A stretch of DNA of 40,574 nt from assembly GCF_018986435.1 (NCBI RefSeq), contig NZ_JAHMIN010000019.1, positions 148,931 through 189,504 of the forward strand, written 5' to 3'. The notes below the pieces were generated by a model that had not been told where the DNA came from, made no database searches, and was given only the letters and a program-made list of their open reading frames with translations. The translations under genes were made by a program, and so were the position numbers. The stretch's first letter is position 1; every line of letters starts with the position of its first letter. Positions 4,926-40,574 of this stretch are shown piece after piece. The DNA comes from Hahella sp. HN01. GTDB taxonomy: Bacteria; Pseudomonadota; Gammaproteobacteria; Pseudomonadales; Oleiphilaceae.

Positions 4926-6644
4926 TCATCTCATTACCTGCCAGATCAAAATCGCCAACAACGCCAACGATACCCCCTGCCAAAACATCACCGGATTACG
5001 CTCCAGAATAGGAGGCCGAGTCTGGTTGAGGTAGGCGGGGTTTGGGTGGCGAAGGTCGTGGAGGAATTCCGAGATTTCGGTGTAGCGTTTGTGGGGATTG
5101 GGCTGGACGGCTTTCTTGAGGGTGGCGTCGATCCAGGCGGGAATGTCTCGTTCTTCGCTGAGCACGGATTTGTAGGTGAGTCGTTTCTGTGCGCCGGCGG
5201 TGCGGGTTTTGGCGACGTCGGCGCCATAGGGGAATTCGCCGGACAGCAGATGATAGGTCAGTACGCCCAATGAATAGAGATCCGAGCCAGGGGAGCCGAC
5301 TTCTCCCAGGAAGTATTCCGGCGCGGCGTACAAGGCGGCGCCGAGCAGGTTGGGCTGGCGCAGCCCTTGATCGTTCTCCGCGACGCCGCCTACCCGGGTT
5401 GAGCCAAAATCTATGATTTTCACCACGCCGGACGCATCAATCATCAGGTTGTCCGGTTTTAAGTCCTGATGCAGCATGTCCATGCGGTGAAAAGCCATCA
5501 GCCCTTTCGCCGCTTGCTCCACAATGCCCCTCACCGTTTCCAGATCCGGTCGCGGGTGATCCCGCAGCCACTGGTTCAGCGTTCGGCCTTCGATGTATTC
5601 ACTCACCGTGTAGAGATAGCGCCGCGGTCGCTCGAATTGCGCGGCCTTCGCCACATGCAGGCTATTGATGCGGCGGGCGATCCATTCTTCCATGAGCAGG
5701 CGCTCCAGATAGGCGGGATCGCCCTGCTGATCCGTCGCTGGCGTTTTTATTACCACCTTGGTGTTGGAGGTAGTATCTACCGCCAGATAAACATGACTGC
5801 GACTGCTGGTTTGCAGGCAGCGCAGGATTTGATAGCCATCAAACTCCGCTCCGACCTGCAAAATCGGGGGAAGCGGCAGGGTTTCCACCTGTTGTTGAAA
5901 CAAAGAATCCACGTCACAAGGCAGCGCGTCTACGCGAATGATCTGCAGCGTCAAATTGTCCTTGCTGCCCTGCTCCAACGCATGATCGACCATGCGTTTG
6001 GCGATGGCGTCCAGGTCATCGGGCTCCTGTAACGCCTCGATTAAAGTATGGGCGTCACAGTATTCATACACGCCGTCGGTGGCCATGATAAAGATATCGC
6101 CCAGCTTGAGCCGCAATGGTTGGTAGTCGATTTCAATATGCTCTCTGAATCCCAGCGCCCGACTCAGATAGCTCTGACTTTGCGACACCCACAAACGGTG
6201 ATCGTGGGTCAGCTGCTCCAGAGCGCCGTCCCGCAGACGGTAAACGCGGGTGTCGCCGACATGAAGGATATGCGCAATGTCGGATTTGAACACCACCGCG
6301 CTAAACGTACAGACGTAGCCTTTTTCCTTGTCATAACGATACACGCTGCGCTGGCCTTCGGCATACAGCCAGGAGTTGGTCGCCCGCAAAACCCGTTGGG
6401 CCGCATGCTGCACAGTCCAGGCGTCGGAGGTGCAGAAGTAGTCTTCCAGAAAGCTTTTCACCGCCGTCTCACTGGCGATCTGACTGACCGAGCTGCTGCT
6501 GACCCCATCGGCCATCGCAAACGCAGCGCCTTTCATCGTCAGTTGCACGCCCTTGGGAACACAACCGCCATGAAAATCCTGATTGATCTCTTTGCGGCCT
6601 TTATCGGTCCATTGACCGAAGGAAAGCGTCAGCTCATTGCGCAT
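4926..6644 (-). CDS. Bifunctional PP2C phosphatase / Ser-Thr protein kinase, membrane-anchored
   Basis: A 572-residue fusion. Residues about 5-245 are a PP2C-type phosphatase (NQDF, MADGVSSSS, LHVGDTRVYRLRDG, ATDGVYEY and SKDNLTL supply the metal-binding acids). Residues about 268-530 are a Hanks-type kinase. It has the lysine in KVVIKTP, catalytic loop HQDLKPDNLMI (HQD replacing HRD), DFGST, APEY and DLYSLGVLTYHLLSG. A single hydrophobic segment at the extreme C-terminus (VSLALLAILIWQVM) anchors it with both enzymes in the cytoplasm. It follows the nitrite/formate channel gene by 75 bp on the same strand. Related fusions sit beside nitrate/nitrite assimilation genes in Pseudomonas, so a role in controlling nitrogen-oxyanion uptake is plausible but inferred. 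Confidence 0.92.
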   Translation of the reverse strand: MRNELTLSFGQWTDKGRKEINQDFHGGCVPKGVQLTMKGAAFAMADGVSSSSVSQIASETAVKSFLEDYFCTSDAWTVQHAAQRVLRATNSWLYAEGQRSVYRYDKEKGYVCTFSAVVFKSDIAHILHVGDTRVYRLRDGALEQLTHDHRLWVSQSQSYLSRALGFREHIEIDYQPLRLKLGDIFIMATDGVYEYCDAHTLIEALQEPDDLDAIAKRMVDHALEQGSKDNLTLQIIRVDALPCDVDSLFQQQVETLPLPPILQVGAEFDGYQILRCLQTSSRSHVYLAVDTTSNTKVVIKTPATDQQGDPAYLERLLMEEWIARRINSLHVAKAAQFERPRRYLYTVSEYIEGRTLNQWLRDHPRPDLETVRGIVEQAAKGLMAFHRMDMLHQDLKPDNLMIDASGVVKIIDFGSTRVGGVAENDQGLRQPNLLGAALYAAPEYFLGEVGSPGSDLYSLGVLTYHLLSGEFPYGADVAKTRTAGAQKRLTYKSVLSEERDIPAWIDATLKKAVQPNPHKRYTEISEFLHDLRHPNPAYLNQTRPPILERNPVMFWQGVSLALLAILIWQVMR

Positions 6645-7912: not shown

Positions 7913-8002
7913 GGTATCAATATCGGTATCGGAGCCTTACCCCTTTACCTCCGCTTCAGCACCACAAGTGACGCCAGCTAAAGACCCCGGATATCACCAA
8001 TG

Positions 8003-10681
8003 CTAAAGGCACGGTGATATATACGATGAGGACTCCTCCGGCGTATAGGCGCTGCTACCCCACCATGTCTGCCAATAATAGCTGAGACGATTATTGTCTT
8101 CTGGAACCCATCGCGGCTTCCATAGTCGCCATGCGGAAGACCAGTAGCGCAACATGTAACCGCCATCCGTGCGACGATATTCCGGTCTACCGCCATAGAA
8201 GGTATGGGTGAACACATAATCACCGTGAAAAATTTCTGGAAATTTATCCCCTACAGTCACGCATGCGACGCCAGGGTTGATGTCGGCGTCAGGGTTTGCG
8301 CTGGCGGGGTGACCGATATCGAAAATGCGTAGCCGCTTATCCTCAACGTCGACATAGTCGGCGAATAGCGCTTCCGCTTCCCTGTCACTTTCCGTTTCCT
8401 CCTCGTAACCGCAAAAGACGAATTCCAGGCTGTTTAGCCCGGTATCATCGCGGTCTCTTCCCTGAAAGGACTGAATCTTCCCTTTGACGCCGCAAATAGC
8501 CCGTTTATCGGAAGACAACGGATCGCTCCACTCTCCCATGTGGAGAACATTATCCGGCGCCACTTTCCTTCCACCGCTACAGGTGAACTCAATGGCGTTA
8601 ACGCCGGTTTCATCGCCTCCGTCATGAACGCTATTCCTCCTGGCTTTCACATCCATGAAATGTTCCCCTGGGGGACAGGCTGACTTTAAACCCCAGTCGG
8701 TAAAGACGCTTTCATCCTTTATTTTGACAATGACGGAACGGTTCCCGTTTTTGTCTGTACAGTACAGGCGCATAGCTTCGATACCGCGCTCATCTTCCCA
8801 GTTATTAGACTTGGAGGGCCCTAATGAGACTTGAACGCCTGACGCATAGGCGCCATAAGGACACAGCACGCCATGCCAGTCTCCTTCCTGTTCGATATCG
8901 CTGGGTATCGGCGCCTCGTCAGTCTGGCCCCAGCGCACCGGCCTTAGCGGCGGATGCACTACATCTGCGACTAAAACGACGCTATCCGCATTTGAATGGT
9001 ATACCTCCAAGGTATGAAAGCCTTTTGACAGATAGCCGTTGAACTGACTCCAACTCCCACTCTCTCCGCTATCTTCAAGTACGGAGAGTCCATCGATGTA
9101 CACAGTCACTTTGCTGGAGAGACTTTGTGCATTTTCAAGTCTGTACTTAAATGTCACAAACCCAGGCTCAACAAAGTATCCATTGAGCAACAACCCCTGG
9201 TTGTCGTCATTACTTTCCCATATCTCTCTTTGCTGTGAGAGCAAGGATATTTTATCTTCATTATTGTAATACTCGCGCCAAAGCCCATGATTCAGAAAAC
9301 GACTCGGGTCCGGCGACCAGGAGCCTATACGTTTTGTTGGAGTTAAGTAGCTGTCATAACCTTGAATATTGGGATACTTTTCAAAACGTCTGAACAGATT
9401 TTCCCTGCGCTTTATATAATTCATATAGAATCGTTCATCCTGATATTTGGCCAGCGCTTGATCACGCCCCTGATAGTGCGTCCTGTAGTTCAATGGATCA
9501 AACAACTCCCGATAGAATATAACGCCATGTAAACCGTCGCCACCATCTATTTCCTGTCTACCAAAATATTCAGGACTATTGTTATATATTCTGTAAAACC
9601 AAGCCTTCAAATCCAGATTTGAAAGCTCATTCCCTGTGTCGTCACTTACTTTTCTGGCGTATGGCAAAACAGTGGAGCGAATATAGAGTTGATTGAAATA
9701 GAGTTCTCTCTGCCGAAGGAGCCTTATATCCTGGGCGACGTCAACTTCACAGTCACCTTCCTCAATCAAATATATGTCCAGATTACCGTCTTTAAGAGTA
9801 CAGTGCGTGTTTCCGGAAGAATCCAGCCACTGCTTGAGCTTTACATTTTCCGGCTCGCTTTCCACGAGCTGATTCCTCATTTCCTCATAGGCGGTAATAA
9901 AATAATTATGGACTTGACCTTCGTTTCCCAAATAGCTTGACCAAGCGTCACTAGCTGCGTCAGCAATCTCTTGACTGGGCTGACGTACGCCGTCAATCAA
10001 TCCTCCGAGCTTGTCCGCAGCGCCATTAAATTCAACAACCGCCCTGGACAAAAGCGTGTTTTGAATAGAGGTCAACTGTATGATTTGCCTGAGAAGACTG
10101 CTCAGCCCCTGCTTCACCTCAAACCCTACGCCGCTGTTACGCATGGATCGGAGTTTGCCAATCTGTGGGTTGAACCTGTCCAGACCCGCCCGAAATTTAC
10201 TGATGGACTGCGTTATCATCTGCTTGGCGTACTGTCTTTGCACTGTGCAGGCAAGCTCCGTCTGGGGCATGTCGAGGCACCCCATCGCCTGATAGTCCTT
10301 CACCTTTTCTAGAAATTGATAATAACCAAAGCGGGCGTCACTCAACTCTGTTTTGCCGCGATTCATTTCCATCACCACCGCATCAATTGGCAACTCGCCA
10401 CTCAAGCGGGACAATAACTCAAAAAGACTCTCATCGAGCTCATCAATAGTTATAAAAACCAGATCCAGAGGCGAGTCATCGCCTCTGCCGCATTCATATT
10501 CCGGAAACAGATACTTATATGTCACGTCTCCAACACCCCGAGTGGGTGAGTTGTTATGACTTTCAATTACTGCTTTGGGAAAGCTGGCGGCCCATGCTTC
10601 AACGCCATCTAGATTACATGGGGATGCGAGGGATTTAACTGAAATTAGAAATAGAATAGCTCCGAGCGCTTTCATGTTCAT
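8003..10681 (-). CDS. Large secreted protein with VMO-I-like domain
   Basis: An 892-residue exported protein. Residues 1-20 form a signal peptide (ALGAILFLISVKSLAS). Residues about 20-330 are mostly helical with paired cysteines. Residues about 500-590 look like a PA14/carbohydrate-binding-type beta domain (VTVYIDGLSVLEDSG, GFHTLEVYHSN). Residues about 600-757 match the vitelline membrane outer layer I (VMO-I) pattern. There, three repeats each start with G-x-W or a C-P/C-G pair (GDWHGVLCPYG, KSACPPGEHF, AICGVKG) and end in an N-x-I/L-E-F-x-C type strand (VNAIEFTC, LNSLEFVFC). The C-terminal 130 residues are aromatic-rich and unassigned. VMO-I folds bind carbohydrate or act as structural coat proteins, so an extracellular sugar-binding or toxin-like role is possible. 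The middle part is unrecognised. Confidence 0.82.
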   Translation of the reverse strand: MNMKALGAILFLISVKSLASPCNLDGVEAWAASFPKAVIESHNNSPTRGVGDVTYKYLFPEYECGRGDDSPLDLVFITIDELDESLFELLSRLSGELPIDAVVMEMNRGKTELSDARFGYYQFLEKVKDYQAMGCLDMPQTELACTVQRQYAKQMITQSISKFRAGLDRFNPQIGKLRSMRNSGVGFEVKQGLSSLLRQIIQLTSIQNTLLSRAVVEFNGAADKLGGLIDGVRQPSQEIADAASDAWSSYLGNEGQVHNYFITAYEEMRNQLVESEPENVKLKQWLDSSGNTHCTLKDGNLDIYLIEEGDCEVDVAQDIRLLRQRELYFNQLYIRSTVLPYARKVSDDTGNELSNLDLKAWFYRIYNNSPEYFGRQEIDGGDGLHGVIFYRELFDPLNYRTHYQGRDQALAKYQDERFYMNYIKRRENLFRRFEKYPNIQGYDSYLTPTKRIGSWSPDPSRFLNHGLWREYYNNEDKISLLSQQREIWESNDDNQGLLLNGYFVEPGFVTFKYRLENAQSLSSKVTVYIDGLSVLEDSGESGSWSQFNGYLSKGFHTLEVYHSNADSVVLVADVVHPPLRPVRWGQTDEAPIPSDIEQEGDWHGVLCPYGAYASGVQVSLGPSKSNNWEDERGIEAMRLYCTDKNGNRSVIVKIKDESVFTDWGLKSACPPGEHFMDVKARRNSVHDGGDETGVNAIEFTCSGGRKVAPDNVLHMGEWSDPLSSDKRAICGVKGKIQSFQGRDRDDTGLNSLEFVFCGYEEETESDREAEALFADYVDVEDKRLRIFDIGHPASANPDADINPGVACVTVGDKFPEIFHGDYVFTHTFYGGRPEYRRTDGGYMLRYWSSAWRLWKPRWVPEDNNRLSYYWQTWWGSSAYTPEESSSYISPCL

Positions 10682-13808: not shown

Positions 13809-13858
13809 GAGGTCGATTTGCTTTGTTAAGTAAATCTACAATGGAGAGAAGTATTCAT

Positions 13859-14599
13859 ATGCTAAAAACATTAACCAAGGGATTGTTATTATCAGCGCTG
13901 ACGGCGTCTTCCGCCTATGCAAGCCAAATCACCTGGGACCTGACCGAAGGCGTTCGTTACGGTTCATACAATAACTCTCTTTCTTATTCGAAAGACGGTA
14001 TGAACCTCACCGTAACCGGCTGGAGCGACACAAAAGGTCCTGCGGACGATAAAATCGAAGGCGCCCGTCTGGGCCGCTGGAATGGTCTTGGAGTCTGTAA
14101 CGACGACGAATACAGCAAGACTCGTTGCGCCACCCCAGAGCATTCCACAGACAATGATCCAGGTCGCGATGGCGATTTTGACATGATCATGTTGTCCTTC
14201 TCTGAAGCAGTCAGCCTGAGCTCATTTCAAAACGGCTGGTACGCCTACGATTCAGATGTCTCCCTGCTCGCCTACACCGGCGGCGCTTCTACCTACAATC
14301 TGAATGATAAAGATTGGGAAGGCCTGCTCAGCGACGGCTGGAACGTGGCTGGTAACTACTCCAATACCATGACCAAAGAAACCGCGACCAGCACGGATCT
14401 GGTTTCCAAGTTCTGGTTGATTGGCGCTTACAATCCCGCGTTTGGTGAGTTGGGCGAGCTGTGCAACGAACTGAACGATCACTTCAAATTGAAGATGCTG
14501 ACCATCGACACCATTGAGTGTCCTGAGCCAACCGCACTGGGCCTGTTTGGCCTGAGCCTGGCGGGCCTTTTTGCGGCGCGTCGCCGCAAGGCCTCTTGA
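13859..14599 (+). CDS. PEP-CTERM sorting-domain secreted protein
   Basis: A 246-residue protein. The signal peptide is residues 1-21 (LTKGLLLSALTASSAYA). The middle region is strand-rich and acidic with four cysteines (CNDDEYSKTRC; ELCNELNDHF; IEC). The C-terminus carries a complete PEP-CTERM signal: PEP, a hydrophobic helix (TALGLFGLSLAGLFAA) and a basic RRRKAS tail. Exosortase recognises this signal at the inner membrane, cuts it, and the protein is passed to the envelope or matrix. A start at 13823 is possible, but the ATG at 13859 follows GGAGAGAA (13843-13850) and places the signal peptide at the N-terminus. Function of the mature part is unknown. Exopolysaccharide association is typical of such proteins. 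Confidence 0.88.
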   Translation: MLKTLTKGLLLSALTASSAYASQITWDLTEGVRYGSYNNSLSYSKDGMNLTVTGWSDTKGPADDKIEGARLGRWNGLGVCNDDEYSKTRCATPEHSTDNDPGRDGDFDMIMLSFSEAVSLSSFQNGWYAYDSDVSLLAYTGGASTYNLNDKDWEGLLSDGWNVAGNYSNTMTKETATSTDLVSKFWLIGAYNPAFGELGELCNELNDHFKLKMLTIDTIECPEPTALGLFGLSLAGLFAARRRKAS

Positions 14600-21567: not shown

Positions 21568-22314
21568 ATGAATCCCCTACTGAAACAGCTCAGCCGATCC
21601 CTGGCGCCGACCATGTTCGCACTTTGCGCGCTTCCTGCATCCGCCACAGTGATCAATATCGACTTCACAGCGAACAACACTGAAACCGCTTACGTCGGCG
21701 CGGACGGCGCGCACTGGAATCAAGTGGCGGTGGGCGACTCTCCTGCGTTCTTGCGCGATGAACAAGGCCGTCAGTTTGACGCCAGCGTCGCCTGGACGGA
21801 CCATGCAGGGGATGTCGTTTATCACCATGCCGGCGGCAATGAACTTTCAGATTCAGGCGTCGGCGCCGCGCCGGACGATATTGACGGTATCAACCGCGTC
21901 TTTTTCTCCGGAGCCAGCTTCTCGCCTTATCAGCTGACTATTTACGGCACTGACGATCTGCGCTTCGCCTTGCTGACGGCGTACAGTGAAATCGGTTATT
22001 CGCCGGATGCGCCCAACTCCCGCTACCGGGCGGACGGCGCCTGGGGCGACGGTATTTTCTATCAGGTGGACTTCGCCGAATATCCCGTGGATGGGAGCAT
22101 TGCCGGCGTAGGCGATGCGTTCGGACTGGGCTTTGGGTTCGCTATCTTTGAAGGCGCCATCACCGGTCTGCAGGTCGCTGGCGAGTTTACGCCCTTTGAC
22201 GCCGGAGAGCCACATGATGTGCCGGAGCCAGCCGCTTGGGCGCTGTTATCCCTGGGCTTGCTTGGCGCAGGTGTTAGAAAAGCGGCGCAATCAAAAGCGC
22301 GGACAGCCGCCTGA
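21568..22314 (+). CDS. PEP-CTERM sorting-domain secreted protein
   Basis: A 248-residue protein. The signal peptide is residues 1-26 (SRSLAPTMFALCALPASA). The mature region is strand-rich and acidic (VINIDFTANNTETAYVG, INRVFFSGASFSPYQLTIYG), compatible with a jelly-roll or lectin-like fold. The C-terminus is a PEP-CTERM signal: VPEPAAWALLSLGLLGAG, then a basic VRKAAQSKARTAA tail. The mature parts of the two PEP-CTERM proteins in this window are not obviously related. No sigma-54 promoter could be found upstream of this one, unlike the gene at 13859. No exosortase is encoded here. Confidence 0.85.
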   Translation: MNPLLKQLSRSLAPTMFALCALPASATVINIDFTANNTETAYVGADGAHWNQVAVGDSPAFLRDEQGRQFDASVAWTDHAGDVVYHHAGGNELSDSGVGAAPDDIDGINRVFFSGASFSPYQLTIYGTDDLRFALLTAYSEIGYSPDAPNSRYRADGAWGDGIFYQVDFAEYPVDGSIAGVGDAFGLGFGFAIFEGAITGLQVAGEFTPFDAGEPHDVPEPAAWALLSLGLLGAGVRKAAQSKARTAA

Positions 22315-34001: not shown

Positions 34002-35792
34002 ATGTCAACAGCCGCTTCCACCACTAAACCAGACCAAAGCAAAGAGTGTGTGATCACCAATAACTGCACCTCTGACATCGTCATTCTGTCTCCCACTACC
34101 GCTCAGGCTCCTGGCGACACCCAGAACGCCAGCGTTTACGATCAGGATCTGGAAATTCTCTCATTGCTCGAAGGCGGAACCGTCATCAGCCAGAATGGTT
34201 CCGGAACGGTGTATCTGGACCAGTATTACACCGATCCCAACACCAAACAGCAGCAGTATTCGCTGGTTTATAACCTGCTGGCCAGCACCTCCAGCTGGTA
34301 TTTCCCGGTAGACAATATCGGCGTCATGCAAAATATCTTCGGCTCTCCCGTTACCTTCCCAGCACAGACGGTAACCACAGATGAGCAGCAGTCCATAGCC
34401 AATGCGGCCACGTTCTATCAGACCATCGCCGCCTACCCTACCTCACAGTTAACCCAGAACTATGAAACCGCCATGAATGGCGCGCAGACTACCGCACAAG
34501 GACAGGCGGACGGCAGCGCGAATTCTTCCGACAATGTGGCCAATTCCATTACCGACAGCGTTAATGCTTTCTTTGCGTCCACCAAGGGCTTCCAGAACGT
34601 CACCCTGGCGGGTCTCGTCGCCGTGGAGTCCTACTACAGCAAATTCCCGTTCGTGTGGGCGCAATATGACAGCACAACCTATTACCTGTACAGCAGCGAT
34701 GGCAATACCACCTCCTTTGTGGGCACGCTCTCTCTGACCAAACCCTCGGCGCTGGATCTCAGCAAACCCAATGCGGGATACATCTGCACTTTCACTCCAG
34801 CGAAAGACCCTACTGACACCAGCACTGTGGATGTTGACTCATCACAGGCGAAAACCCTGACGTACAGCAATGCGCTGTTCGTCGACAACGTGAACGCGGA
34901 TATCCCGGACGTAGCGGTGAAAGGCACCTTCCAGTTGAAACGCGTGTTCACCCAAAACCCGTCCGATACTCAGATCATCCCCGTGCTGACCGGCACCATC
35001 GCGGGCGAAACCTGTATTGGTTTTGATTCGCCGCAACTGAGCACCGATCAGAGTTCGGAATTCTGGAACACCCTGTTCCACCCGAAAAACTCCGCGCAAG
35101 TGTTCAATTCCATCATGACCATTGGCGGCGCGGTGATGATGCTGCATTTCGTGGGGTCCACTCTGTACGGTATCTTCAAGTGGGTCAAAAACCGCGGCAA
35201 AGCCAAAGAGCCCACCACCGAGGATTTGTTCAAGCAACAGCAGGAAGCATTTGAGAAGGCCCTGAACGAGAAGATCGACACCGCCGTGCAGAAGCTCACC
35301 AACGGCAAACAAAACGCACCGGAGGATACCGAAAGCGCACTGGAGGAGATCAATTCAGAACGGGGCTCCATTGATGACAACCTGAACGCCATCAACCTGG
35401 AAGAAGGCCTGAAAGTCGAAGCCAGCACGCTGGAAATTCAGGCGCAATATGAAAGTGAAATGAATGGCCAGCAACTGGAGCAACTGGAATCCAGCGCCAC
35501 CAGCATCAAGAACTCCAATGACGCGTTAAACAGCGCCACAGAAGAGAATCTCCATGATGTCGTCACTGAGCAGACCAGCGCGTTCAAGGACATTCAGGCC
35601 AATACCTCCGCACTGACGGAATCCCTAGATAAGTCCATCTCCAGCGAGCAGCAGGCGCAGATCGAAAGCAATCAGGCCGCCAGCGAAAAAGTCAGCGAAG
35701 ATATCGAGAATTCGGAGAAAAATGCGGAAGAGGACGCCTCCAACAGCGACCCCAAAGCGGAAGACGAAATCAAGCCACTCGAAGATTTCTAA
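34002..35792 (+). CDS. Unrecognised operon protein A (membrane segment plus coiled coil)
   Basis: A 596-residue protein with no signal peptide. Residues about 15-340 form a strand-rich domain (VITNNCTSDIVILSP, LVYNLLASTSSWYFPVDNI, FYQTIAAYPTSQL, WAQYDSTTYYLYSSDG). Residues about 365-395 contain a hydrophobic helix (SIMTIGGAVMMLHFVGSTLY) followed by KWVKNRGK. The last 190 residues are highly charged, Gln/Glu/Ser-rich and likely coiled coil (LFKQQQEAFEKALNEKI, SSEQQAQIESNQAASEKV). Its N-terminal domain is paralogous to that of the next gene product. ATG 34002 follows AAGGA. First gene of the operon with the borosin-type methyltransferase. Family and function unknown; a substrate, carrier or membrane scaffold are possibilities. 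Confidence 0.8.
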   Translation: MSTAASTTKPDQSKECVITNNCTSDIVILSPTTAQAPGDTQNASVYDQDLEILSLLEGGTVISQNGSGTVYLDQYYTDPNTKQQQYSLVYNLLASTSSWYFPVDNIGVMQNIFGSPVTFPAQTVTTDEQQSIANAATFYQTIAAYPTSQLTQNYETAMNGAQTTAQGQADGSANSSDNVANSITDSVNAFFASTKGFQNVTLAGLVAVESYYSKFPFVWAQYDSTTYYLYSSDGNTTSFVGTLSLTKPSALDLSKPNAGYICTFTPAKDPTDTSTVDVDSSQAKTLTYSNALFVDNVNADIPDVAVKGTFQLKRVFTQNPSDTQIIPVLTGTIAGETCIGFDSPQLSTDQSSEFWNTLFHPKNSAQVFNSIMTIGGAVMMLHFVGSTLYGIFKWVKNRGKAKEPTTEDLFKQQQEAFEKALNEKIDTAVQKLTNGKQNAPEDTESALEEINSERGSIDDNLNAINLEEGLKVEASTLEIQAQYESEMNGQQLEQLESSATSIKNSNDALNSATEENLHDVVTEQTSAFKDIQANTSALTESLDKSISSEQQAQIESNQAASEKVSEDIENSEKNAEEDASNSDPKAEDEIKPLEDF

Positions 35793-35888: not shown

Positions 35889-37736
35889 ATGGCCGCGAAT
35901 GTGGTTAACATCGACAATCAATATAGCGAAGCTCTCGATATCTATACGTTTACCGTGCCTTCCGGCGCCTCGGCGGATAGTCCCAGCACGATGTACCCGG
36001 TTTACACCAAAGTGGATTCCGTCGCCGCCAATTCCAAAAAAACCTATACCCCCTCCAACCCTCTGGAAAATCTGTCGTTTGCGCGCCAGTCGGACGGCAT
36101 GCCGCTGCTGAATCAGGTCACCAATATCCTCGGCGACACCAATGTCACCATCACGGCGGACGACCTCACCAGCGCGCAAAAAGCCTTCGCTTTCTACCAG
36201 GCTTACAAGGGCAGTCCCTATAGCCCCAATGCGCTGGCGGTCAACGATATCATTCTGAACAACAGCGATCTGACGCAACAGAACCAAAAACTGAATCAAT
36301 GGTTCTCCGATAACAATGTCGGCTTTGACTACAACACCTTTTCCTCGGTTTCCTATTGGGCGGAAAACGACGTACGCGCCTGGGCCGGCAGCGAAGGCCT
36401 GACCCTCTACTGCTACAACCCACAACCGCCGCAACCCATGATTCCGCTAGTGCTGCCGAAAGACAGCAGCGGACAGATTATTCTCGGCGCCGATGGCAGC
36501 GCTCTTTATCAACCCACCAGCGGAAGCACGGTGGAGCTGACGCTGAGCAAAGGGACGCTGACCTCCAACGGCGCCACCGACACCAGCGGCGTCAATCTCA
36601 GCGCGGTGATGCAGGACATGATCATGCATGGCGGCGACGCCGGCGTTTACGAGCTGTTCTTTACCGGCAAAGTCGATGGCGACGACGTCATTGTCCAGCC
36701 CTATCAGGTTCCGCAACTGGCCTGGTGGATGTCCGCCTATGACTTGGCGTACACCGCTTACACCGCCATTAACATCATCATGATCAGCCAAACGGTCATC
36801 GCCCTGGCGAAGAACCTTCCCACGCTGTTCAACGCATTGAAAACCGGAGGCCAAGCGGTCATCAGCGCAGTGAAGTCCGACCTCAGCAACGTCGCGCAAT
36901 GGATATCCAGCAAGTTCACCAGTGCGGCGGCGGACAACGGCGATCTGGTGAATGTGGACGTGGATACCGATGTAGACGTGGATGTCGACGTGGATGTCGA
37001 TACCGACGTGGACACGGACGTCGATGTGGACGTAGATATCGACGTGGACATTGACATAGATATCGACGCCCTGGTGGTGGTGGACGTGGATGTGGACATC
37101 GACGTAGACATCGACACTGACGTAGACACGGTGGTGGACAATGTCGTCGACAACGTGACCGATATCGATACCGACATCGATACGGATATCAATGTCGACA
37201 GCTCGGCGCTGGGCTCGCTGGTGAAGAACATCGGTCAGTCTCTTTGGGCCAACAAAGGCGCTATTTTCAAGTTTGTCCTGAAAAACGCCGCCGTGATGGG
37301 GGGCATGACCGCCGCCCAGAAACTGTTGGGCATGTGGGGCAAAAAGGCCGGCGACAGTTACGCCGACGAACAGCCTTCCGAAGCCGCGCCGCTGGGCTTG
37401 CTGATGGATTACATGGAAAACCCCGCCAACACGATTCAGGAACGCTGGACCACCTTCTCTTATTACGTGGACCAAGGCGCCAGCGCTGACGAACAGAACA
37501 TGGCGGTATCCGGCATCCTGTCCCTGAAAAACGACGCCGAAGATCAGGCCTTCAGCGCCTGGCGCTGGAGTCAGGACGACGAGAACGCAGCGGTCAACGC
37601 CATGGCGCAGTATTCCTCGCAAAGCGACTGGCCCAAAGCCTACACCACTCTCGCCAGCTATACCTATCAGGGCAAAACGCTGCCGTTGAAAGTTGGCGCC
37701 AGCGTCGCCCTGAAATTCGTCGCCAAAATTCTGTAA
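35889..37736 (+). CDS. Unrecognised operon protein B with alternating (V/I/T)-Asp tract
   Basis: A 615-residue protein. Residues 1-300 match the N-terminal domain of protein A (NVVNIDNQYSEALDIYTF; TSAQKAFAFYQAYKGSPYSP; a Y-W/Y segment near 155). Residues about 290-325 are hydrophobic (YTAINIIMISQTVIALA). Residues 356-437 form an extraordinary tract of alternating hydrophobic or Thr and Asp residues: 35 Asp in 82 positions. The remainder is helical (IFKFVLKNAAVMGGMTAAQKL; DEQNMAVSGILSLKN). The start is ATG 35889 with GAAGGAG just upstream. The earlier frame start crosses the hairpin. Thirteen bases separate it from the methyltransferase gene, so the products probably work together. Candidate substrate of that enzyme or a calcium-binding scaffold (inferred). 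Confidence 0.82.
   Translation: MAANVVNIDNQYSEALDIYTFTVPSGASADSPSTMYPVYTKVDSVAANSKKTYTPSNPLENLSFARQSDGMPLLNQVTNILGDTNVTITADDLTSAQKAFAFYQAYKGSPYSPNALAVNDIILNNSDLTQQNQKLNQWFSDNNVGFDYNTFSSVSYWAENDVRAWAGSEGLTLYCYNPQPPQPMIPLVLPKDSSGQIILGADGSALYQPTSGSTVELTLSKGTLTSNGATDTSGVNLSAVMQDMIMHGGDAGVYELFFTGKVDGDDVIVQPYQVPQLAWWMSAYDLAYTAYTAINIIMISQTVIALAKNLPTLFNALKTGGQAVISAVKSDLSNVAQWISSKFTSAAADNGDLVNVDVDTDVDVDVDVDVDTDVDTDVDVDVDIDVDIDIDIDALVVVDVDVDIDVDIDTDVDTVVDNVVDNVTDIDTDIDTDINVDSSALGSLVKNIGQSLWANKGAIFKFVLKNAAVMGGMTAAQKLLGMWGKKAGDSYADEQPSEAAPLGLLMDYMENPANTIQERWTTFSYYVDQGASADEQNMAVSGILSLKNDAEDQAFSAWRWSQDDENAAVNAMAQYSSQSDWPKAYTTLASYTYQGKTLPLKVGASVALKFVAKIL
36954..37199 (+). repeat. Coding repeat: 82-residue (V/I/T)-Asp tract
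   Basis: Nineteen unbroken two-residue units (VD, TD, ID) open the tract, followed by a short ALVVV break and further units with a few Asn. Valine is written GTG, GTA and GTC and aspartate GAC and GAT in irregular order, so the pattern is kept at protein level and is not a simple DNA microsatellite. Confidence 0.9.
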
Positions 37737-37749
37737 GGGAGAACGTCAC

Positions 37750-39960
37750 ATGGCGAGCGCTTATCCAAAATATGAAGATCATCAGAAGCACTGGGAAGAA
37801 CTGGCTCAGGGCATCGCCGCGCTGAAGGAGACTGTGAGAGAGGTCGAGGAAGGAGAAATCCCCGCCGGCTCAAAACAAGGCGAGCTCATCATACTGGGGA
37901 CCGGGATCGAAACCATTGGCATCTCCGTCGGCGACATTCGCCTCATCGAAGAGGCGGACAAAGTGCTGTACTGCGTCGCCGACCCCGCCACCGTGGTCTG
38001 GCTCAAACAGTTGCGACCGGACTCGTTGGATCTGTACGTGCTGTATGGAGAGGACAAAGTCCGCTACACCACTTACATGCAGATGACGGAAGCCCAGCTC
38101 TACTGGGTGCGGCAGGGACTCAAGGTCGTCGTGGTGTTCTACGGCCACCCGGGCATATTCGTGTTATCCACGCACCGGGCGATCAAACTGGCGCGCCGGG
38201 AGGGCTATAAAGCCACCATGAAGGCGGGCGTCTGCGCGCTAGATACACTGTGCTCCGACCTAGGTATAGATCCCTGCTACCCGGGCCTGCAGACTCACGA
38301 AGCCACTGACTGCCTGGTCCGGCGTCGCCATTTGGACGCCAGCCTTCATGTGGTGTTATGGCAGGTTGGCCTGATTGGAGAAATGGGTTATCGCCGGCAA
38401 GGATACCTGAATAACAAGTTTTCTTATTTCATCCACTGGCTGCAGTCCATTTACGGAGCTGACTATGAAGTCACCCACTACATTGGCTCCCGTTATCCCA
38501 CCATCGACCCGCTGATCGAAACCTATCGCCTGAGCGAACTGCATGATCCGGCGAATCAGGTCAGGATCACCGGCCTGTCCACGTTCTACATTCCTCCTAT
38601 GCAGGTGGTCCCGACGGATTATCAGACCGCCGTTGACCTGGGCGTCATCGAGCCTGGGCAGAAACTAATGACGCCCCGCTCGCCCCTGCGGGAAATCGAC
38701 CGCTATGGTCCCCGGGAAATGAAAGCCTTCGACGCCTTTAAGCGCTTTCGCATTCCCGCTTCCTACAAATGGCAGGATGAAACCGCCGCCAGCCGCTTCC
38801 TGATTGAACTGCGTTTCGATACGCGTTTGCAGGATCTGTATCGCCGCGATCCCGGCGCCGCGCTGCAAGACCCTCGTTTCAGCTCGTTATCAGATCGTGA
38901 GCGGGCGATGCTGGCGTCACGGGATTCCGGCGCCATTCAAATCGCCGCCAAAGGCGCCTATATCCGCTCCCCCGCCACAGAAGCGACGGTGACCGCCTGT
39001 CTGACGCAAAAGTCCGTCGCGATGGAGCTGGTGAAAACACTTGGAGACCAGCCCAAAGCGGAAGCCAGGGCCGCCTTCGAGACCTGGTTGAAGTCGCGGA
39101 ATTATCAAGTTGAGTGGGCGCATTTGGGCGGGGCCATTGATTTTATCTTCCGCAATAATCTGTTCCCCTGGACCGGGGTTTATATCGAACCCGAACAGCA
39201 GTTTGTGATAACCATTATCGGCGCCAGAAAACAGCGCCATAAAAGCGTTATCTACATCAATGGCGCCCGCATCCGATCTTTTGCGTTTGACTCCGGCGCC
39301 ATTCGCTGGAAGGCGAGCAGCCAGGTCCCCCATCACGGTTTTCTGCGCTTGGACGTGGACGCCAACGGCGCACGCCGGCTGATCGGCAAGATCTGGAGCG
39401 ACGCCAACAGCGACGGCGCCCAGTCCGCTTTTGTCGCCTTGGAAGCCAACCCCGAACGTAAAGCGCTAAGCGCCCAAGCCTGCAGTTTCAACGGATGTGA
39501 TGGCCTTGGCGCCATCTATGGCGAATACGCCGTTCGCACCGATGGACGCTTTTACCGGGACATCAACGAGTTCAAAGTGTCAGAGGCTGGATTGACGATT
39601 AACCAGCGCGTGGTCCCAGAGTTCTCTTTCAACAGAGGGACACTGCGCTGGCGCGGCGGCGACAAAGCCTGCTACGAAGGAGAAGCGACCTTTTTGCGCG
39701 ACCCTATCATCAACTCCATTGAGCTTTACGGCGCAACCCGCTCCCACGAAGAGGAAGGCGTTTTCACGTGCTACGGCTCCTCCACCTCTGCAACGACGCC
39801 CGATTATTGCGGACCAACTCTGCCTGACTGGGCCGCGCGCCACTTGGCGGATATCGCGCACCACAACAGCCCTAAGGGAGGATTGCTGTTATGGCATAAG
39901 TGGGAAAAGTTCAATCTCACGACCTTTATCGTCAATCGCTATTTAACCCATCTTCTTTAA
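37750..39960 (+). CDS. Borosin-type peptide alpha-N-methyltransferase fusion protein
   Basis: A 736-residue protein. Residues about 43-285 are a tetrapyrrole-methylase-fold SAM enzyme closely resembling fungal OphMA. Matching blocks are LIILGTGIETIG, VLYCVADPAT, LYVLYGEDKVRYTTYMQM (with the R105 and Y109 counterparts of the OphMA catalytic Arg/Tyr), VVVFYGHPGIFV, HEATDCLVRRR, NNKFSYFIHWLQ, and GLSTFYIPP. Residues about 345-402 match the OphMA clasp/borosin-binding helices (FDTRLQDLYRRDPGAAL, LSDRERAMLASRDSGAIQIA). In OphMA this segment leads into a C-terminal core peptide methylated in cis. Here about 335 strand-rich residues follow, including two similar units (about 499-550 and 613-664, each with GAIRW or GTLRW). 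A ribosome site AAGGGAG precedes ATG 37750. Activity is inferred. Confidence 0.85.
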   Translation: MASAYPKYEDHQKHWEELAQGIAALKETVREVEEGEIPAGSKQGELIILGTGIETIGISVGDIRLIEEADKVLYCVADPATVVWLKQLRPDSLDLYVLYGEDKVRYTTYMQMTEAQLYWVRQGLKVVVVFYGHPGIFVLSTHRAIKLARREGYKATMKAGVCALDTLCSDLGIDPCYPGLQTHEATDCLVRRRHLDASLHVVLWQVGLIGEMGYRRQGYLNNKFSYFIHWLQSIYGADYEVTHYIGSRYPTIDPLIETYRLSELHDPANQVRITGLSTFYIPPMQVVPTDYQTAVDLGVIEPGQKLMTPRSPLREIDRYGPREMKAFDAFKRFRIPASYKWQDETAASRFLIELRFDTRLQDLYRRDPGAALQDPRFSSLSDRERAMLASRDSGAIQIAAKGAYIRSPATEATVTACLTQKSVAMELVKTLGDQPKAEARAAFETWLKSRNYQVEWAHLGGAIDFIFRNNLFPWTGVYIEPEQQFVITIIGARKQRHKSVIYINGARIRSFAFDSGAIRWKASSQVPHHGFLRLDVDANGARRLIGKIWSDANSDGAQSAFVALEANPERKALSAQACSFNGCDGLGAIYGEYAVRTDGRFYRDINEFKVSEAGLTINQRVVPEFSFNRGTLRWRGGDKACYEGEATFLRDPIINSIELYGATRSHEEEGVFTCYGSSTSATTPDYCGPTLPDWAARHLADIAHHNSPKGGLLLWHKWEKFNLTTFIVNRYLTHLL

Positions 39961-39980: not shown

Positions 39981-40574
39981 TTGAACGCCACACACGAACT
40001 CAGCGATCACCTCGAAGCGTCGGAAAATATCGCCAACGTCAGCCAGTTGGCGGGCGTCGTCGCCAGCCTGCCGCAGAACGCCAGCACCACTCATTACGGG
40101 GCGGACGGCAAGCAAATCGCGTCCTATTCCAAAACCAGTTACGCCAACTTAAAACTGTCCCCGCAGGGCGACATTCAGGGCGGAACCCTGAGCCATAGCG
40201 CAACAGACGCCAATGGCAACGCGTTGAACAGCTCCACCCTCGCCTTCGCCAACGGCAATGTCGCCACGGCCAAAACACAGATCAATAATCGCTTCGCCAG
40301 TGGCGTCGCCAAGCAGGTGGAAGCGGATTTCAGTAATGTGAAATGGACGCCGGCCACCACTATTCACAGCGGTCAGGTCAAATTCACTTCACGCCGGGGT
40401 GATTCTCAAAGCCTGCGCAGCGACGGCGTCGTCACTTACGCCAATGAACTGATAACGAGCGGATCGTTTCGCCATTACTCGCCGGAGGGACAAGGCGGCG
40501 TAGAGGGCTATACGGACATTGATTACAGCAACACCAAGTTCGTTGGCGACCGTATTATCGGCGGTTACTTCTCC
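39981..40574 (+). CDS. Unrecognised operon protein, 5' part only
   Basis: The frame is open from TTG 39981 to the window end (198 codons, no stop). GAGGAGG at 39966-39972 is eight bases before the TTG, an excellent ribosome site. The ATG at 39974 lies in another frame that soon ends. The product has no signal peptide. It is Ala/Ser/Asn/Gly-rich with many short strands (STTHYGADGKQIASYSK, VKFTSRRGDSQSLRSDG, GSFRHYSPEGQGG), consistent with a beta-rich repetitive protein. It begins 20 bp after the methyltransferase gene, so the same operon. Family unknown; a further substrate or partner of the methyltransferase is possible. Confidence 0.75.
   Translation, partial: MNATHELSDHLEASENIANVSQLAGVVASLPQNASTTHYGADGKQIASYSKTSYANLKLSPQGDIQGGTLSHSATDANGNALNSSTLAFANGNVATAKTQINNRFASGVAKQVEADFSNVKWTPATTIHSGQVKFTSRRGDSQSLRSDGVVTYANELITSGSFRHYSPEGQGGVEGYTDIDYSNTKFVGDRIIGGYFS

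Follow-up and report, generated by a model that had tools for sequence, protein, structure and literature searches.

A borosin-type methyltransferase with a fused clasp in Hahella sp. HN01 and a neighbouring Val/Ile/Thr-Asp tract protein as its probable trans substrate

The window analysed here, a 40,574-nucleotide stretch of DNA from Hahella sp. HN01, carries a gene (M) whose product couples a borosin-type methyltransferase to a long C-terminal region, raising the question of what such an enzyme methylates. An initial annotation had described M as an OphMA-like borosin methyltransferase with a fused clasp and a large C-terminal region, listed its target as unknown and suggested that it may define a new borosin architecture. 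The features of M are:

37750..39960, + strand: M, predicted borosin-type peptide backbone N-methyltransferase with fused clasp/borosin-binding domain (BBD) and C-terminal repeat region; ATG start, 736 aa
37879..38601, + strand: SAM methyltransferase domain of M, residues 44-284 (homology and KchMA residue spacing)
38695..38955, + strand: clasp/BBD of M, residues about 316-402 (clasp-only profile)
39163..39405, + strand: first tandem repeat of M, residues 472-552 (profile comparison, HMM)
39508..39750, + strand: second tandem repeat of M, residues 587-667 (profile comparison, HMM)
39892..39909, + strand: WHKWEK motif of M, residues 715-720 (alignment A5)

Searching the PDB with phmmer matched residues 40-402 of M to dbOphMA (E 2.3e-67), 41-402 to OphMA (E 6e-67), 41-398 to MroMA1/2 (E 1.4e-62) and 44-299 to SonM (E 2e-36). 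The 26 PDB sequences matching M at E up to 1 comprised 25 borosin enzymes and one unrelated peptidase (E 0.93), with no corrin or porphyrin methylase among them. Pfam TP_methylase (PF00590) fell on residues 46-187 (E 6.8e-10), and a profile made from four M sequences lifted OphMA to 280 bits, with an alignment reaching the end of the clasp. The YGHPG (131-135), NNKF (221-224), STFYIPP (277-283) and ERA...DSGAI clasp motifs named in the initial annotation were all located in M.

The residues listed for KchMA in PMC11395268 were mapped onto M by residue spacing alone, which pairs Y96, Y99, R105, Y109, Y131 and Q205 of M with Y70, Y73, R79, Y83, Y105 and Q179 of KchMA. These catalytic Tyr/Arg and SAM/substrate residues are conserved at six of the seven listed positions in 9/9 M relatives, so the loss of the Arg/Tyr site that the initial annotation had named as evidence against its own reading was checked for and not found. 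The seventh position, equivalent to KchMA Ser136, is Cys162 in M and Cys in seven of nine M relatives of like architecture; in KchMA this is a SAM-pocket Ser whose Ala mutant is virtually inactive (PMC11395268). By sequence, M is a borosin-type enzyme and no cobalamin methylase, as the initial annotation had proposed.

The clasp is weak in simpler searches. In the pairwise search it contributes about 8 bits (whole M scores 231 bits and residues 1-300 already 223.5), residues 286-402 alone gave no match in a single-sequence PDB search, and a six-sequence clasp profile placed MroMA at the top at only E 0.1, followed by chance matches. A clasp-only profile of nine diverse relatives reached OphMA at E 6.9e-7 and dbOphMA and MroMA at about 1e-5, with SonA next (E 0.33-1.1), and these four proteins filled all 26 rows of the result. 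This indicates that a BBD is present in M and that the fused clasp first claimed for it is real. Profile comparison found no second BBD in the stretch after the clasp (residues 403-471).

What follows the clasp is a region of 334 residues (403-736; 335 had been stated at first) without a recognisable C-terminal core. Sequence and profile searches found no PDB relative for it, and no Pfam family matched above its cut-off. It contains two tandem repeats that match each other over 39 columns (probability 93%, E 3.3e-7, profile comparison), and comparing M with profiles of the neighbouring proteins A, B and D gave nothing significant. The class 1 feature of a core on the same chain was looked for in M and no alternating tract was seen; there is instead a conserved tail with WHKWEK, which is invariant across 7/7 sequences of alignment A5 and is replaced by WANWQK at locus L042.

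A candidate target lies immediately upstream. The gene order is A-B-M-D-O, with a gap of 13 bases between B and M:

35889..37736, + strand: B, the proposed substrate (615 aa); its ATG start is assigned from relatives, the ORF itself opening at TTG 35805
36954..37205, + strand: candidate core tract of B (residues 356-439), three runs in which V/I/T and D alternate
34002..35792, + strand: A, paralogous to the N-terminal half of B; it ends, in place of a VD tract, in an acidic tail that looks helical by eye
39981..40574, + strand: D, start of a 529-aa protein that continues beyond the window; TTG start assigned from the upstream GAGGAGGA and relatives

The tract of B spans 84 residues in a (V/I/T)-D pattern. 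Asp parity was scored for seven of the 11 B proteins across spans of 74-82 residues, interruptions included, and in five of them, two being near-identical congeners, every Asp falls in one parity (34/34, 34/34, 36/36, 33/33 and 34/34). The Azospirillum tract has 36 of 37 Asp in one parity, and the G103 tract breaks the rule (17 vs 16). The DNA repeats of the tract match at 70-95%. When two species of the genus are compared, the 84 codons of the tract differ by a single non-synonymous change and 23 synonymous ones; the other 530 codons of B differ by 10 and 100, respectively. The alternation is therefore maintained by selection at the protein level. Alternating acidic cores have been reported for type III borosins, and the bacterial type III enzyme KchMA is methylated at up to 11 sites within residues 742-796 (PMC11395268).

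A full-length M that includes the C-terminal region, paired with a separate candidate core, was found at 11 loci. These are the window, three genomes out of six others searched in the genus, G103, two megaplasmids of Mycetohabitans endofungorum, a plasmid of Azospirillum lipoferum, and three MAG contigs whose labels read Flavobacteriaceae, Williamsia and Sneathiella. B with its tract accompanies M in all 11, directly upstream in ten and one gene further away in L010. Within the scanned loci the tract pattern picked out B-type ORFs alone, and a similar pattern, eight units of any residue followed by D/E/N, had no match in 26 other loci, which are mostly methyltransferase-only relatives with 1.5-kb flanks and include L015 (core period 4) and the truncated L027 (which stops before its core). 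The target first listed as unknown is thus likely to be the adjacent B.

On a wider scale, across 146 genomes (the window's own and relatives) full-length M, B and A share one distribution of five genomes, and a sixth genome gave a methyltransferase-only match. Across 398 genomes of the phylum, B was found only in the window's own genome, and M-type methyltransferases were found in 15, namely its own genome, one with a fused protein (L041) and 13 with the methyltransferase only. Of 72,556 plasmids, the same three records were hit by A, by B and by the C-terminal region of M; searches of phages (50,697 records) and IMG/VR found no relative. This co-occurrence ties M, A and B together functionally but does not tell which of the proteins is methylated.

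Some of these loci have features of their own. At L010, labelled Williamsia (Actinomycetota), M is 63% identical to that of the window and the flanking genes look Bacteroidota-like by eye, so the label or bin may be wrong. The L009 enzyme (7974-10199), on the contig labelled Flavobacteriaceae, shares 65% protein identity with M; its cassette has a GC of 0.34 and the flanks 0.29, both AT-rich, which could reflect an old transfer from one phylum to another. On a Bradyrhizobium plasmid (L016, 7911-12923), two SonM-like methyltransferases lie on either side of a TauD/TfdA dioxygenase and a small ORF, with a prolyl oligopeptidase adjacent, in what looks like a complete split borosin cluster.

Borosins are assigned to class 2 when one protein combines methyltransferase and BBD and another carries the core (PMC11395268, Figure 1 legend). 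M and B resemble this class, and the split borosins of types VII-VIII, in that M holds methyltransferase and BBD and the candidate core lies on a separate B; type VIII proteins are described with about 160 residues after the core (PMC11395268), compared with 176 in B after residue 439. The suggestion of a new borosin architecture is therefore not supported: the layout was already defined in that paper, ten further full-length split loci share it, and the repeats also occur in the core-fused L041.

Other known systems resemble M in part. The fungal fused enzymes OphMA and dbOphMA share the methyltransferase domain and clasp over M residues 40-402, but OphMA ends in its own core where M has tandem repeats. 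The type III fused enzyme KchMA has catalytic residues that match by spacing, but its core is on the same chain and M is without one; its methylated stretch starts at 742, as given in PMC11395268, and some 340 residues may intervene between clasp and core, a length like that of the C-terminal region of M. The type IV split pair SonM/SonA (PMC8429565) is similar in its trans-acting layout and its methyltransferase domain, but there the BBD is on the precursor, whereas here it is on the enzyme.

Two differently built relatives are informative about the C-terminal region. In L041 (genome G530) a single 1174-aa chain runs from methyltransferase and clasp through three significant repeats and a hydrophobic stretch to a IDVDSDAEIDID-type core. 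In L015 (Burkholderia arboris) the methyltransferase and clasp form one protein, and an adjacent 308-aa protein has the repeat twice, together with a core of TEVT repeats. In the window, methyltransferase, clasp and repeats are all in M and the candidate core is in B. A repeat HMM trained on the M family only found the three copies in the L041 protein (whole-sequence E 4.6e-18) and gave a weak match to the 308-aa protein (E 1.2e-4). With the L041 copies added, the 308-aa protein reached E 1.3e-8, compared with 0.056 for the best of 1100 shuffles, and it is on this HMM search that the L015 repeat call rests; when the profile of the entire C-terminal region was compared directly with the sequence of that protein, the match was weak (probability 6%, E 0.006). 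A tree of the methyltransferase domain placed L041 and L015 between the full-length M group and SonM-like enzymes; support for the fork uniting all 11 full-length rows is only 52/50, and several other forks are weak. One ancestral chain cut at different places would be the simplest reading, in which the repeats of M would be a remnant of the segment joining enzyme to core in the fused relative. Beside the fused enzyme at L041 (170-6900, - strand) we also noted by eye a long ORF of repeat/phospholipase D-like type, an ORF for a JmjC-like oxygenase and one for an AMP-ligase.

These relatives bear on whether M could be a cis-acting (class 1) enzyme that methylates its own C-terminal tail, at residues about 704-736. 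The tail is hydrophobic and C-terminal like the OphMA core, and the clasp is fused to M, as it would be in such an enzyme. However, the tail holds the WHKWEK motif (invariant in the seven A5 sequences) and no alternating core, the fused L041 protein runs past the repeats into an IDVD core that M does not have, and in 11/11 loci M is accompanied by another gene that bears the candidate core. We consider methylation of its own tail by M very unlikely.

The other neighbours of M could also be asked to supply the substrate. A and B are homologous in their N-terminal halves (probability 98.6%, E 9e-16, profile comparison), and A-type proteins are present in one to three copies per cassette (window 34002-35792; L009, L010, L014), with one copy sitting between B and M in L010. 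By hydropathy, membrane-like segments are present in two of seven B sequences and seven of 11 A sequences. For A, B, D and the C-terminal region of M no Pfam, NCBIfam or PHROGs family was found above cut-off or chance. Matches of B to MSCRAMM adhesins (NCBIfam, E about 6e-6) were rejected, being far under the cut-offs and covering just the Asp-rich tract. D was found only in the genus, L009 and L010. Modification of A or D in trans, in place of the tract in B, would agree with A co-occurring with M as strictly as B does, in up to three copies (L010), and with D adjoining M in the genus, L009 and L010. Against this, the tract pattern picks out B-type ORFs alone in the scanned loci and D is absent between M and O in L011-L014 and L042, making either protein a highly improbable substrate. 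That M is a TP-methylase departed from peptide chemistry and acting on a small molecule, to which its general Pfam and NCBIfam matches (tetrapyrrole methylases, with YabN below cut-off) might point, is scarcely credible given borosin enzymes as 25 of the 26 PDB matches at E up to 1, a catalytic Tyr/Arg set intact in 9/9 and the retained clasp.

The last gene, O, resembles 2-oxoglutarate oxygenases by sequence. Its matches to PhyH (Pfam) and TIGR04324 (NCBIfam, E 5.5e-7) are both below their cut-offs, its relatives in plasmid records carry the label StrG, and its HxD...H...R residues read as conserved in 5/5 aligned sequences. O follows in nine of the ten loci assessed, L005 being left out for its short flank, and it was not found within the 8-kb flank of L010. 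A more distant oxygenase of this kind follows the Burkholderia precursor (L015) too.

Promoter-like sites (2 vs 4.9 in shuffles) and terminator-like sites (12 vs 10.7) were not above chance, so the operon was called from gene spacing. No protease gene was noticed by eye beside it, and therefore no mature peptide can be named. A literature search, with primary split-borosin papers outside its scope, recognised no description of an A-B-M-D-O operon. Elsewhere in the window, two proteins (13823-14599 and 21568-22314) appear by eye to end in PEP-CTERM-like sorting tails, and a PP2C-type phosphatase apparently fused to a protein kinase (4926-6644, - strand) adjoins a formate/nitrite-type transporter.

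Taken together, we think it likely that M N-methylates the tract of B in trans, as a class 2 split borosin. The methyltransferase of M, with its own BBD, would methylate the backbone of the (V/I/T)-D tract, which would be held in an OphMA-type tunnel while the enzyme steps along it two residues at a time. N-methylation would then fall mainly on the aliphatic and Thr positions; in the scored span of 78 residues, the non-Asp face has 39 positions. The tandem repeats of M probably position B, and O probably hydroxylates the tract. Several observations weigh against this reading: strict Asp parity fails in the G103 protein, the clasp is weak in the single-sequence search and the six-sequence profile, the KchMA Ser136 position is Cys in 7/9 relatives, profile-to-sequence comparison gave only a weak match for the L015 repeats, no protease gene was noticed next to the operon, and A accompanies M as strictly as B does.

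If B is the substrate, a further and more doubtful possibility is that the product, instead of a small peptide cut out of B, is a large, possibly membrane-associated protein whose 84-residue tract is N-methylated up to every second residue (dozens of sites vs up to 11 for KchMA) and hydroxylated by O, and that the repeat is a module moved between enzyme and precursor, serving as a docking scaffold wherever it is placed.

With B as its probable partner, the 'orphan' M becomes one half of a candidate enzyme-substrate pair, whose strongly patterned core could bear many N-methyl groups. L041 is fused, L015 is split before the repeats and the window is split after them; this series would record a cis-acting borosin becoming trans-acting, and it suggests that the repeat module could bring foreign cores to the enzyme.
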